The position numbers and the translations under genes were made by a program. Below are positions 1 to 8,208 of a stretch of DNA of 57,805 nt, in pieces; the stretch's first letter is position 1, and every line of letters starts with the position of its first letter. Source of the stretch: Bacteroidota bacterium (GTDB taxonomy: Bacteria; Bacteroidota; Bacteroidia; AKYH767-A; JAHEYN01); the NCBI GenBank assembly GCA_947448795.1, contig CANFOZ010000008.1, forward strand, positions 1 to 57,805, in the 5' to 3' direction. The notes below the pieces were generated by a model that searched no databases, was not told where the DNA came from, and saw only the letters and a list, made by a program, of their open reading frames with translations.

Positions 1-218
1 CATCTATCAGCGAACTGAATATGCTATGGAATGCAAACTTCAACGTGAACAAAACCCTAAGTACCACCGCAGGTGCTGCGGAAATGGCAAGATCATATTA
101 TTGGTCGTCGACGGAGGACGATGCTAACTACGCGTGGTACTTCTATTTCTTCTATGGCACCAACTACGACCCCAATAAGAACTACCCAAACTATGTGCGT
201 GCGGTTCGGGCTTTTTAG
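1..218 (+). CDS. C-terminal end of a DUF1566/Lcl-type protein, probable DGR variable protein (5' partial)
   Basis: The reading frame is already open at the window edge (codons from base 3) and stops at 216-218, so only about 72 C-terminal residues are visible. The pattern YYWSSTE, then an aromatic- and Asn-rich stretch, then YVRAVRAF is the usual end of DUF1566/Lcl C-type-lectin-fold domains. Between bases 111 and 204 most codons end in C or T and are AAC, TAC, TTC, TAT, GAC or CCC. That is the pattern left when the adenines of AAY codons in a template repeat are replaced at random. Together with the avd remnant 87 bases downstream this points to the variable region of a diversity-generating retroelement. 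The template repeat and reverse transcriptase are not in this window. Alternatively it is an ordinary DUF1566 surface protein. Confidence 0.72.
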   Translation, partial: SISELNMLWNANFNVNKTLSTTAGAAEMARSYYWSSTEDDANYAWYFYFFYGTNYDPNKNYPNYVRAVRAF

Positions 219-265
219 CAATTTAACAATTTAACCATTTACTCTGAGCGCAGCGATTGTCTTCA

Positions 266-289
266 TCCGCTCCGCTATAGCGGAGCGGA
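266..289. repeat. Perfect GC-rich palindrome after the variable gene
   Basis: Ten-base arms TCCGCTCCGC and GCGGAGCGGA surround a TATA loop, followed by an A-rich run. It lies 47 bases after the stop codon of the variable protein. A hairpin or cruciform just past the variable region is known to help target recognition in the Bordetella phage DGR, so the same role is possible here. It could also be a simple terminator-like hairpin, but no T run follows on the plus strand. Confidence 0.6.
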
Positions 290-304
290 AAAAAATAAAA
301 CAAA

Positions 305-478
305 ATGGCCTTGTATTACGATTTACCGGTGTTCAGGGATGTGTATCAGTTGATCCTGAAGATATTTGAATGCACGAAAGACTTTCCGAGGGAGTATAAA
401 TACTCCGCTGCGCAGGAGTTCATACTCCTGCGCTTTTCTTTGCGGATTTGTAATCCGCCATGCATCAAAATTAATTGA
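305..478 (+). pseudogene. avd: avd-like DGR accessory gene, truncated by a repeat
   Basis: The first 33 codons, from MALYYDLPVFRDVYQ to FPREYKY, match what I know as the start of the four-helix-bundle accessory variability determinant (Avd) proteins, which partner the DGR reverse transcriptase. Intact Avd proteins are about 110-130 residues and continue with TLGQ/TVGE after EYKY. Here codon 34 runs into a palindromic repeat (from about base 405), and the frame ends after 24 unrelated residues at 476-478. No remaining avd sequence is seen downstream. The gene is therefore broken, leaving only the first helix. The identification rests on recall of the family; a profile search would settle it. 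Confidence 0.7.
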
Positions 479-528
479 TCATTTTGGGCTTTTCGAGCCA
501 CAAAGCATTGCGGCTCTGCATGCCCACT
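405..528. repeat. Dispersed palindromic repeat, copy A (REP/MITE-like)
   Basis: This 124-base unit aligns along its length with copy B at 2245-2367. It holds three hairpins: GCGCAGGAGT/ACTCCTGCGC (410-433), GCGGATT-TGT-AATCCGC (442-458), and an imperfect GAGCC...GGCTC stem (495-516). A further GCGGATT-like hairpin lies at 549-565, and the 15-base start of the unit, ATTGTCCGCTGCGCA, recurs at 619-633. Structure and size fit a non-autonomous palindromic element. No transposase gene is present in the window. It interrupts the avd-like frame. Confidence 0.75.
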
Positions 529-1078
529 GTCGGATGGGCTTTGTCCTTGCGGATTTGTAATTCGCGTCTTTAATGTTTACTGCCTGCGATTTGTAACCCT
601 GTGCTTTGGTTTTGAACCATTGTCCGCTGCGCAAGAGGACCGCTCAATCCGCGCGCTCAATTACAGTAAAATACTTGACCAAGAAGCGGGGGGTGAGCCT
701 GTCGAACCCCCGTTTGCGCCAGGGATGGGAGGGGCCGAAGGGCGCAGCGGAACCCCCGGAACAGCGCGGTGCCGAAGGCAGGCGCCAAAAAATCAGTTTG
801 AGTGTTTAGTGGGCTTCGACAAGCTCAGCCACCGGGCTTCGATACGCTTCGCTAAAGTTCGACAGGCTCAATTCATCGCTCAACTACCGGTCGAAGCGAT
901 GTGCTGATCGGAGTCGAAGGGCGGTCCCTGAGCTCCTGGGCTGAGCTTGTCGAAGCCTGTCGAAGGGCGGTCCCTGAGCCTGTCGAAGGGCAGCCACCGC
1001 GGCTTCGGCAAGTTTCGACTTCGCTCACCTCAAGCGCTAAGCCACCGGTGTTGCATTTTAAACGGCGGCATTCCGTGA
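529..1078. repeat. GC-rich repeat block built on TGAGCYTGTCGAA
   Basis: I see no gene in this stretch. It carries five copies of a TGAGC(C/T)TGTCGAA core: forward at 694, 942 and 976, inverted at 814 and 857. Two copies form an exact 19-base inverted repeat (812-830 and 939-957). A 21-base direct repeat containing GGGCGGTCCCTGAGC occurs at 913-933 and 959-979. Such units are scattered through many Bacteroidota genomes as intergenic repeats. Base composition is clearly richer in G+C than the surrounding genes. The short open frames here have no family features and are treated as chance. Confidence 0.7.
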
Positions 1079-2207: not shown

Positions 2208-2244
2208 TACGGAGAAATATCCATTGCAGTTTTTCTGTTATTGT

Positions 2245-2367
2245 CCGCTGCGCAGGTTTCATACCCCTGCGCTTTTTCTTTGCGGATACACAATCCGCCA
2301 TACATTCAATTAAATGGCTGTTTTATGGTTTTGGAGCCGCAAGGCATTGCGGCTCTACCCGCCCACT
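2245..2367. repeat. Dispersed palindromic repeat, copy B
   Basis: Second copy of the unit at 405-528, with the same order of hairpins: GCGCAGG/CCTGCGC, GCGGAT/ATCCGC (2282-2298) and a perfect nine-base stem GAGCCGCAA/TTGCGGCTC (2334-2355). Paired positions differ between copies while the stems are kept. It fills the gap between two convergent genes and reaches the stop codon of the P-loop kinase gene, so it may also act as a transcription end. Confidence 0.75.
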
Positions 2368-4902: not shown

Positions 4903-6405
4903 TTATTTGTTGTCGATTCCATATAAAGGCAAGAATTTATTTTTGGCGTAGGCCAAAAAGTGGCTGAAACGCAATTCTTCGCCAGTTACGCGCTTGCAGA
5001 GTTCATTTGGGTTGTAACGTTTCCCATGTTGATGGATATTGGTGCGAAGCCATTGTAACAGGTTTGATAGCTCGCCTTTTTCGATCTGCGCTTCTAGTCC
5101 AGGTATGTCTTTTTGCGCTTGCGCAAAAAATTGCGCAGCATAAAAACTGCCCAAAGAGTAGGTAGCGAAGTAGCCAAAACCACCGTGCGACCAATGGATG
5201 TCTTGCAGCACGCCCATCGCATCCGAAGGTACGTCGATACCGAGGTATTCTTTGTATTTTTTGTTCCAAGCGGCAGGCAGGTCTTTCATCTCCAAGCTGC
5301 CTTCAATCAGTGCTTTTTCCAGTTCGTAGCGAATAATGATGTGGAAATGGTAGGTCAGCTCGTCGGCAGAAGTGCGAATAAAGGAAGGCTGCACCACATT
5401 GATGGCTTTGTAGAAGTCCTCAACAGAAATCGTTTTTAATTGTTCGGGGAAATAGCCCTGAAGCGTGGGGTAGTTCTTTTTCCAATACGCCAAGCTTCGT
5501 CCCACTTGGTTTTCCCACATACGCGACTGCGATTCGTGTATGCCCAAGGAGACAGCCTCGCCCGAAGGAAGTCCGTAGTTATCAGCTTTCAGTCCTTGCT
5601 CGTATAGAGCATGGCCACCTTCGTGAATGCAGCTCCAGATCATCTCGCTTAGGTCGGTTTCGTTGATGCGTGTGGTAACGCGAACATCTTCGGCGCTAAA
5701 GGAAGTGGTGAAAGGGTGGGAGGAAACATCTTGTCGACCGCTTTCAAAGTCGTACTGCATCTGCTTTAAAAGGTCGATGCCAAAGTCCCACTGTTTTTGT
5801 TTGTCGAAATGCAGGTGCAAAAAAGCATGCTCGTTTTGCTTGCAGGCCGCGATCTGTTTAACCAAAGGCACCAGCTCGCGTTTCACTTCGTCGAAGAGTG
5901 TATCGAGCTGCTTGCAGGTCATGCCGCGCTCAAACTGATCGAGCAATGCGTCGTAAGGATGCTCGGTGTACCCCAATAGTTTACACTCGTGTTTTTTGAG
6001 GTCAATAAGTTTTTGAAGAAAAGGGGCAAAGACAGAGAAGTCGTTGCTCTTGCGGGCCTTGTCCCAGGCTTGAAAGGCCTCGGAGGTGGTGCGACTCATG
6101 AGCATCACAAACTCGGTAGGGTATTTCTTGCTGTCTTTATACGAGCGCGCGGTTTCTTTTACATTCGCTTGTTCTTCCTCGTTCAAGGAGGCATCTTTTG
6201 CCAAGGCCTCGAGCAGCGTGCCAGTTGTTTCAGCGGTAAAGAGTTCGTGTGAGATGCCTGATAGGGTCGAGAGCTGCTGTGCACGGCGGTCGGCACCTTT
6301 GGTTGGCATGTACACTTCTTGATCCCAACCGAGCACAGCAGCGCTGTAGTTGATGTCGGAGAGTTTGTTTAAGAGCGCCTTATATGCTTTGTAGGATGTT
6401 TCCAT
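4903..6405 (-). CDS. M32 family carboxypeptidase (Taq type)
   Basis: A 500-residue metallo-carboxypeptidase that removes C-terminal residues from peptides. The zinc motif HEGGH lies at about 261-265, followed by the family segments GIHESQSRMWEN and IRTSADELTYHFH and the C-terminal HWSHGGFGYFATY. All agree in order and length (about 500) with Thermus carboxypeptidase Taq. No signal peptide, so it is cytosolic and probably recycles peptides. The frame is open 16 codons further up, but that would overlap the DUF423 gene by 44 bases; ATG at 6403-6405 leaves a four-base gap and begins at the conserved METSYKAY. Likely in one operon with the DUF423 gene and the small exported protein. Confidence 0.94.
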   Translation of the reverse strand: METSYKAYKALLNKLSDINYSAAVLGWDQEVYMPTKGADRRAQQLSTLSGISHELFTAETTGTLLEALAKDASLNEEEQANVKETARSYKDSKKYPTEFVMLMSRTTSEAFQAWDKARKSNDFSVFAPFLQKLIDLKKHECKLLGYTEHPYDALLDQFERGMTCKQLDTLFDEVKRELVPLVKQIAACKQNEHAFLHLHFDKQKQWDFGIDLLKQMQYDFESGRQDVSSHPFTTSFSAEDVRVTTRINETDLSEMIWSCIHEGGHALYEQGLKADNYGLPSGEAVSLGIHESQSRMWENQVGRSLAYWKKNYPTLQGYFPEQLKTISVEDFYKAINVVQPSFIRTSADELTYHFHIIIRYELEKALIEGSLEMKDLPAAWNKKYKEYLGIDVPSDAMGVLQDIHWSHGGFGYFATYSLGSFYAAQFFAQAQKDIPGLEAQIEKGELSNLLQWLRTNIHQHGKRYNPNELCKRVTGEELRFSHFLAYAKNKFLPLYGIDNK

Positions 6406-6409
6406 GTGT

Positions 6410-6781
6410 TTATTTTTGTTTGATAACAGCCAGCACCAAAGTGCTCCAGCCAAGAATGAAAGAGAGTCCGCCGAGCGGGGTAACCGGACCTAAGATGGTC
6501 CAGCCCATGGTGGTGAGTAGGTATAGCGAGCCGCTGAAGAGCACTGTTCCGATGGCAAAGAATCGAAAAGACCAGTTTAGGTAGCGGCTTGGATAGCTTG
6601 GATACAGCAGGGCCACGGCAATCATCGCGAAGACATGCAAAAATTGGTAGCGTACCCCTGTCTCAAAGGCCATAAGTGACTCGGGCGAGAGTGTTTTTTT
6701 TAGTGCATGCGCACCGAAGGCGCCGAGCATAACGGCTAAGGCGCCGCTGATACCGGCTGTGGTCAGGATTTTTTTAGGCAT
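6410..6781 (-). CDS. DUF423 family membrane protein
   Basis: A 123-residue protein with four hydrophobic segments and the family pattern GAFGAHAL near residue 22, ending in a conserved PLGGLSFILGW segment. DUF423 proteins (YwdK/YgdD type) are small inner-membrane proteins of unknown role. The longer open frame starts 17 codons upstream, but ATG at 6779-6781 gives the usual family start, with Lys-Lys before the first membrane segment. It is followed after four bases by the M32 carboxypeptidase. Confidence 0.88.
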   Translation of the reverse strand: MPKKILTTAGISGALAVMLGAFGAHALKKTLSPESLMAFETGVRYQFLHVFAMIAVALLYPSYPSRYLNWSFRFFAIGTVLFSGSLYLLTTMGWTILGPVTPLGGLSFILGWSTLVLAVIKQK

Positions 6782-6841
6782 GATGCTGCAAAGATATAAA
6801 AGCGCGCGGGATGAGAACCTGACAAGAATCATTGAAAGTGC

Positions 6842-6872
6842 TTGAACGCTTTCGACTGATTTTGTATTTTTG
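6842..6872 (+). promoter_or_regulatory. Promoter of the saccharopine dehydrogenase-like gene
   Basis: TTG (6842-6844), 20 bases, TATTTTTG (6865-6872): a full match to the Bacteroidota consensus. The transcript would start near 6878, about ten bases before the ATG at 6889. This rules out the upstream in-frame start at 6832. Confidence 0.75.
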
Positions 6873-6888
6873 CGGCAAGATAGCCAAG

Positions 6889-8208
6889 ATGAAAAACATA
6901 CTTATTATCGGCGCCGGTCGCTCTGCCGCTTCATTGATAGACTATTTATTGGAACATTCTACTGCCGAAGAATGGCAATTAGTTGTTGCCGATGTTTCTT
7001 TGGCCTTAGCGCAAGAAAAGACGGCAGGTCATCCACAGGCCAAGGCAATCGCCTTTGATGTTCATAATGCTGCTGAGCGGGAGCGTGAAATAGGCAATGC
7101 CGACTTGGTGGTGTCTATGCTGCCAGCCGCTATGCACATGGAAGTGGCAAACGATTGTTTGCGTCTAGGGAAGCATCTTGCAACGGCTAGTTATGTATCA
7201 GCAGAGATGCGCGCGCTGGATGCGCAGGTTCGCGAGCGTGGGTTGATATTTTTGAATGAATGCGGTGTTGATCCAGGCATCGATCACATGAGTGCCATGA
7301 AGATTATTGACGAGGTGCGCAGCCGAGGCGAAGAGGTAATTGCTTTTCATTCGTATTGTGGTGGACTTATCGCTCCGGAAAGCAATACCAATCCCTGGGG
7401 CTATAAATTTACATGGAGCCCGCGCAATGTGGTTTTGGCTGGGCAAGGTGGGGATGCAAAATGGATTGAGGATGGTAAAATGAAATCGCTTACCTATGCC
7501 AATTTATTTTACGAAACGCAAATGATCGACTTTGAAGGATACGGCTCTTTTGATGCGTATGCTAACCGCGACTCGCTGTCGTATCGCACCGTGTATGGTT
7601 TGGATAACATTCCAACGATGATGCGCGGAACGCTGCGCATGCCAGGTTTTTGCATGGCTTGGGACAAGTTGATCTCGCTTGGTTTGACGGATGCCTCAAA
7701 AAATATTCAAGGTAAATACAAGACATGGTCGGCGCTGATGCAAGGCCTGCACCCGGATTTAAAGGACATGACCGAGCTGCTGGATGAACTTGGCGTGGAT
7801 GACGAGGCATGTGCTGAGAAATTACTTTATCTCGAACTCTATTCCGATCGCGTGATAGCCGATGCCGTAAACACGCCTGCAGAAGCTTTGCAAGCTTTGC
7901 TCGAAGACAAATGGAAGCTCGGTGAACACGACCTTGATTTGATAGTGATGAAGCACGAGTTTTTGATTCGACGAAAAGATGGCAGCGAGCGCAAGATTCA
8001 CGCTTCTTTAGTGGTGAAGGGACAAGATCGAATTCACACGGCTATGGCTATGACAGTAGGCTTGCCTTTGGCTATAGCAGTGCGACTTATCATGAATCAC
8101 AAGATACCATCGCGTGGCGTGGTTGTGCCTGTTAAGCCTGAATTTTACGAACCCGTTTTGGCTGAGTTGGCTCAAAAAGGAATCGTTTTTCACGAAAGTG
8201 AAAACTGA
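6889..8208 (+). CDS. Saccharopine dehydrogenase-like oxidoreductase
   Basis: A 439-residue protein with an N-terminal NAD(P)-binding fold (MKNILIIGAGRSAAS) and the saccharopine dehydrogenase layout: a short Rossmann domain, a central catalytic domain starting NECGVDPGIDHMSAM at about residues 118-132, and a C-terminal return to the Rossmann part. In the lysine pathway this family links or splits lysine and 2-oxoglutarate through saccharopine. Bacteroidota often carry this single-domain form without the fused partner, so whether it acts on lysine or another substrate is open. It is a single gene with its own promoter and stops two bases before the convergent trmN6-like gene. Confidence 0.87.
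   Translation: MKNILIIGAGRSAASLIDYLLEHSTAEEWQLVVADVSLALAQEKTAGHPQAKAIAFDVHNAAEREREIGNADLVVSMLPAAMHMEVANDCLRLGKHLATASYVSAEMRALDAQVRERGLIFLNECGVDPGIDHMSAMKIIDEVRSRGEEVIAFHSYCGGLIAPESNTNPWGYKFTWSPRNVVLAGQGGDAKWIEDGKMKSLTYANLFYETQMIDFEGYGSFDAYANRDSLSYRTVYGLDNIPTMMRGTLRMPGFCMAWDKLISLGLTDASKNIQGKYKTWSALMQGLHPDLKDMTELLDELGVDDEACAEKLLYLELYSDRVIADAVNTPAEALQALLEDKWKLGEHDLDLIVMKHEFLIRRKDGSERKIHASLVVKGQDRIHTAMAMTVGLPLAIAVRLIMNHKIPSRGVVVPVKPEFYEPVLAELAQKGIVFHESEN

Follow-up and report, generated by a model that had tools for sequence, protein, structure and literature searches.

A probable detached target of a diversity-generating retroelement, followed by a truncated avd gene, in a Bacteroidota bacterium

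Known detached targets and a complete cassette in a relative

Multiple or distal variable regions (VRs) with decayed genes of a diversity-generating retroelement (DGR) alongside were described in 2012 (PMC3521204). The relevant passages of that paper (DiGReF) place the distal target ORFs of Pseudogulbenkiania NH8B far from the working reverse transcriptase (RT), next to a decayed DGR gene, and interpret the arrangement as duplication and loss. Remote lectin targets and RT-less remnants are described for cyanobacteria (relevant passages of PMC7517822), and diversification in trans has been explored in Thiohalocapsa for incomplete DGRs and remote targets (relevant passages of PMC10907252).

The locus described here belongs to this known type, the detached DGR target, and is not a new system. 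It shares with the NH8B ORFs a target remote from a working RT and a decayed DGR gene alongside; the NH8B case differs in that the remnant is an RT and the working RT is known (PMC3521204, same passages). The targets of cyanobacteria and Thiohalocapsa likewise stand apart from an RT, some with remnant homology between template repeat (TR) and VR and no RT nearby. Unlike the present locus, they belong to other phyla, and the keyword-matched passages of these two sources contain no Avd remnant (PMC7517822, PMC10907252). A one-sided avd stub is not described in the keyword-matched passages of PMC3521204, PMC7517822 or PMC10907252.

A complete cassette (target, hairpin, avd, TR, RT) is present in a relative from the same taxonomic order, Bacteroidia bacterium SJ183 (G010, JADLBQ010000010.1; loci L030/L060). 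Its TR and VR differ at 23 positions, 21 of which are A in the TR. Its RT has an RVT_1 match and contains GNLTSQ, the motif expected of DGR RTs, the SQ motif being given as a mark of these enzymes in the part of PMC3521204 that treats it. The present locus resembles this cassette in its Lcl_C target, in the hairpin past the stop codon, in the start of Avd, and in gene order, and the two VR ends compare as SVRAVRAF against YVRAVRAF. Unlike the present locus, the G010 cassette is complete, with full Avd, TR, and RT. Its gene order places the expected RT downstream of avd, where the sequence analysed here contains only repeat sequence and host genes.

Target gene, hairpin, and avd stub

The window, meaning the whole stretch of DNA that was analysed, is one entire contig (C8, 57,805 bases) of a Bacteroidia-type assembly of 2.72 Mb in 119 contigs that is 93.7% complete. 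Because the window is the whole contig, base 1 is an assembly break within the target gene. The features are listed in Table 1. No further DGR parts were found in the rest of the contig.

Table 1. Coordinates of the DGR-related features and the adjoining repeat in the window
Feature	Position	Strand	Evidence
3' end of target gene, Lcl_C / C-type-lectin-like, 71 codons and stop, cut by contig edge	3..218	+	Pfam Lcl_C 2.7e-8; full-length homologues in G034 and G010
VR; A-type divergence from ~93 to 191; conserved VRAVRAF end is the likely IMH	87..218	+	Mismatches to the C110 copy at TR-A columns; codon-position switch
Perfect palindrome forming a hairpin (10-bp stem, TATA loop) where a DGR has its downstream hairpin	266..289	+	Fold; relatives have hairpins of different sequence in this position
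avd stub, codons 1-33 only	305..403	+	79% identity to G010 Avd; frame runs on through unrelated sequence to 478
Dispersed intergenic repeat in place of the remaining avd; starts with a GCTGCGCAGGAG...CTCCTGCGC hairpin	404..640		24 genomic places, including window 2244-2367

The frame of the target gene is open from the contig edge. Its match to Lcl_C (DUF1566-like) scores 34.6 bits, just below the cut-off of 34.9 because the gene is cut short. A search of solved structures gave only a weak match, to HbP1 (E=0.003). The VR occupies the 3' end of the gene and extends up to its stop codon. A preliminary description, made from the sequence alone, had noted a DUF1566-like gene end with AAC-type codons; the Lcl_C match bears this out, and AAC-like derivatives are found in the codons from about 93 to 191.

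Seven other loci (L189-L195; contigs C32, C47, C50, C71, C78, C83, and C85) encode a large secreted-protein family that has a common N-terminal domain and long GATG/GVTG collagen-like repeats, and several of the contigs break off inside its members. Sister collagen-like genes run off the ends of C32, C47, C71, and C78, and no sequence joining C8 to the 5' gene halves on these four contigs was found. A collagen-like Lcl_C gene at 5998-7416 of locus L025 has an end (YWSSTEFDQNNAWYFNFGFG...YVRAARAF) that resembles an old VR; its third-position divergence from C8 is of the ordinary kind.

The palindrome, TCCGCTCCGCTATAGCGGAGCGGA, is perfect over 24 bp and begins 47 bases past the stop codon, where the preliminary description had located it. 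It occurs once in the window and in 0 of 100 shuffles, and the stretch folds with a z value of -2.76. The hairpin is intact here and is damaged or missing in some relatives (G349, G306, and G309). It may be a retained cis element.

The ATG at 305 opens a frame whose first 33 residues are 94% similar to the Avd of the complete G010 cassette. The Pfam bAvd match to this frame is weak by itself (E=0.0017, 19.3 bits, cut-off 40). Of approximately 114 avd codons, 33 remain. Past codon 33, from about base 404, the frame consists of a dispersed intergenic repeat, relatives of which occur at over 20 genomic sites, so that the term "broken avd" is correct. The repeat family is made up of palindromic pieces (GCGCAGGAG...CTCCTGCGC and TTTGCGGAT...ATCCGC) and is seen at 404-640 and 2244-2367 of the window and on contigs C6, C42, and C52. 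Between the two window copies, at 1206-2207, lies a gene for a 333-residue protein that combines a RhuM-type domain (Pfam Virulence_RhuM 3.5e-27) with a Fic domain at its C terminus (Pfam Fic 2.2e-11).

Divergence between the two gene copies and search for RT and template

The genome contains one other close copy of the target gene, at the start of contig C110 and likewise cut by the contig edge. Its flanks are unlike those of C8, so it is a separate locus and not an allele. This copy has neither hairpin nor avd. Further Lcl_C genes on C41, C59, and C15 are more distant and were not counted as VR copies of the C8/C110 template; those on C41 and C59 diverge from C8 in the ordinary way, at third positions.

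The differences between C8 and C110 were sorted using 16 TRs from related loci in other genomes, recognised as templates because they mismatch a VR at A positions. Against the TR consensus, differences between the two copies affect 24 of the 50 A columns and 5 of the 84 other columns (p=2e-8). Against each single TR the bias has p values from 7e-4 to 5e-9. The confinement to A is thus seen indirectly, on two gene copies judged by the TRs of other genomes and not by their own.

A second test, based on codon position, is independent of any template. In codons 37-66, within the VR, there are 16 nonsynonymous and 0 synonymous codons, and third positions mismatch at 1 of 30. Upstream, in codons 1-30, the counts are 3 nonsynonymous and 7 synonymous, with third-position mismatches at 8 of 30. 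The switch between the two regions has p=7e-5. Taken alone, the scarcity of third-position changes in the VR core has p=0.026, on few sites. Ordinary or distant paralogue pairs show the usual third-position excess.

Spared third positions are what overwriting from a single template, with errors at A, would produce; selection for surface variation on its own would not produce them. The TR-A columns are also surface codons, and selection alone could raise divergence there, but not with third positions unchanged. Gene conversion could contribute to the similarity of the two VR cores.

Neither an RT nor a template was located. Queries with RVT_1 and with the G010 DGR RT found no RT in the whole 93.7%-complete assembly, and queries with the VR itself and with an A-rich template probe found no TR there. 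The probe is a hypothetical sequence, used only as a query, with A at every column where C8 and C110 differ. The RVT_1 search is sensitive enough, since it picks up the G010 DGR RT and avd-linked RTs in other relatives. The locus is not a complete DGR cassette: the assembly yielded no DGR RT and no TR, and the locus has neither an intact avd nor another accessory gene. The preliminary description had held that the RT and template are outside the window or gone, and this agrees with their absence from C8 and from the other contigs. It had also looked to a genome search to settle the matter; the search found neither part, and with an assembly of this completeness, broken inside both gene copies, the options of a frozen target and of one served in trans both remain. 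Since about 6% of the genome is unassembled and both VR copies lie on contig breaks, absence from the assembly does not prove absence from the genome.

A phage-borne DGR was considered and found no support: phage records gave no DNA match to window 1-600 and no protein match to the stub, and no viral contig encodes a relative of the VR.

avd stubs in relatives and the present state of the locus

G010 Avd was searched against 395 genomes of the class and 396 of the phylum, and the results were joined with loci found through their VRs. The survey gave 37 near-full-length genes, 25 that end after residue 27-75, and 1 C-terminal piece at a contig edge. Among the 25 stub entries one place appears twice and one is of a distant type, leaving about 23 distinct stubs; 20 of the 25 lie directly 3' of a VR-type gene end. 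The arrangement of VR, hairpin, and an avd truncated after codon 27-75 is found repeatedly, in Bacteroidia as well as in Chlorobiaceae. Frameshifts or premature stops mark many of the stubs as pseudogenes. The loci found through their VRs are biased towards the start of avd, whereas those from the Avd searches of class and phylum genomes are not. Better conservation of the N-terminal end of Avd could explain part of the N-terminal preference; the stubs that have 68-93% identity and break off abruptly are real truncations.

Two Chlorobiaceae loci (L111 and L121) contain a stub-tailed VR on the same contig as an intact cassette and 3-4 kb from it. Like the present locus, each has VR, hairpin, and then avd, here cut after 42-67 codons. 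Unlike it, each has the intact cassette close by, with a TR that fits the stub-tailed VR. The stub-tailed VRs differ from the cassette TR at 23 and 22 positions, and the TR has A at 21 and 20 of these; the cassettes' own VRs give much the same picture (19 of 20 and 24 of 27 mismatches at A). Because these VRs match the nearby TR except almost only at A, a target with a stub need not be dead. A third stub-tailed VR (L116, 12023-12429) fits its local TR less well, with 29 of 43 mismatches at A, and may reflect a second template or an older event. It has the stretch AAGAGTTTCGGG in common with the TR of L121.

Five Bacteroidia genomes that are 96-99% complete (G303, G349, G142, G171, and G309) contain a VR together with avd or its stub and gave no match to RVT_1. 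Loss of the RT with the target kept therefore also seems to happen. In G303, a genome of 7 contigs, locus L179 (4040-4657) has VR, hairpin, and full-length avd minus its ATG, and a transposase-like frame replaces TR and RT.

Homology, the bias towards A columns, and the stub are established directly, as is the lack of RT and TR in the assembled sequence. We consider it very probable that the locus represents a detached DGR target, remote or orphan, with a pseudogene stub for avd. The earlier reading as the end of a DGR cassette gains from the A-restricted divergence of the two copies and from the relative in which VR, hairpin, avd, TR, and RT are complete. The proposed mechanism is that a DGR RT would copy an A-rich TR with errors at A, and that retrohoming of the cDNA, directed by the VR end and the downstream hairpin, would replace approximately the last 130 bases of the gene. 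With avd reduced to a stub, the locus itself would be unable to supply Avd, template, or RT. In C8 and C110 the non-A skeleton of the VR core is common to both, while drift is seen upstream of it. This pattern points to one template having acted on the two loci, and the two VRs may last have been written from it when the loci were already apart. In that case one locus or both would have been served in trans.

An ordinary gene family, in which a surface lectin undergoes normal diversifying selection and no retroelement takes part, would fit the many collagen-like and Lcl_C paralogues in the genome. We regard it as very improbable, because third positions are near-constant in the VR core and variable upstream, the changes track the TR-A columns of other genomes, and a hairpin and avd stub come next in DGR order. 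The detached DGR target itself may be in either of two present states, which divide its probability between them, and the choice between a live and a frozen locus is about even. It may be frozen: the site would formerly have had an entire cassette, would have lost TR and RT through a deletion with one end in avd, and would retain its most recent variant as a fixed gene of the host. The failure to find RT and TR in the assembly favours this, as do the five RT-negative relatives and the replacement in G303; the intact hairpin and the near absence of non-A divergence in the C8/C110 VR core speak against it. With the same likelihood, the locus may be a live remote target whose VR is still rewritten in trans by an intact DGR in the unassembled part of the genome. 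This accords with the position of both VR copies at contig breaks, with the stub-tailed VRs of L111 and L121, which are recent targets of the nearby cassette, and with trans service of remote targets as reported or proposed in the relevant passages of PMC10907252 and PMC3521204; no trace of RT or TR within the assembled 93.7% counts against it. The preliminary description, which held that avd was lost and that the target may be frozen or served in trans, is thus supported, with the refinement that the layout is recurrent and a stub alone does not make a target dead.

It is also conceivable, though unlikely, that VR, hairpin, and 5' avd form a unit by which DGR targets spread in Bacteroidota through duplication, the start of avd being kept because the DNA just past the hairpin aids recognition of the target site and not for its protein.

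Targets of this type are overlooked by surveys that begin with the RT. In genomes that are fragmented or have no RT, detached DGR targets can be flagged simply by an avd stub behind a lectin-type gene, and the frequency of such stubs is the part possibly of interest to specialists. As stub-tailed targets in Chlorobiaceae can be rewritten in trans, reads are needed before such genes are declared dead. That avd is lost from one side only offers a testable view on how DGRs acquire extra targets.
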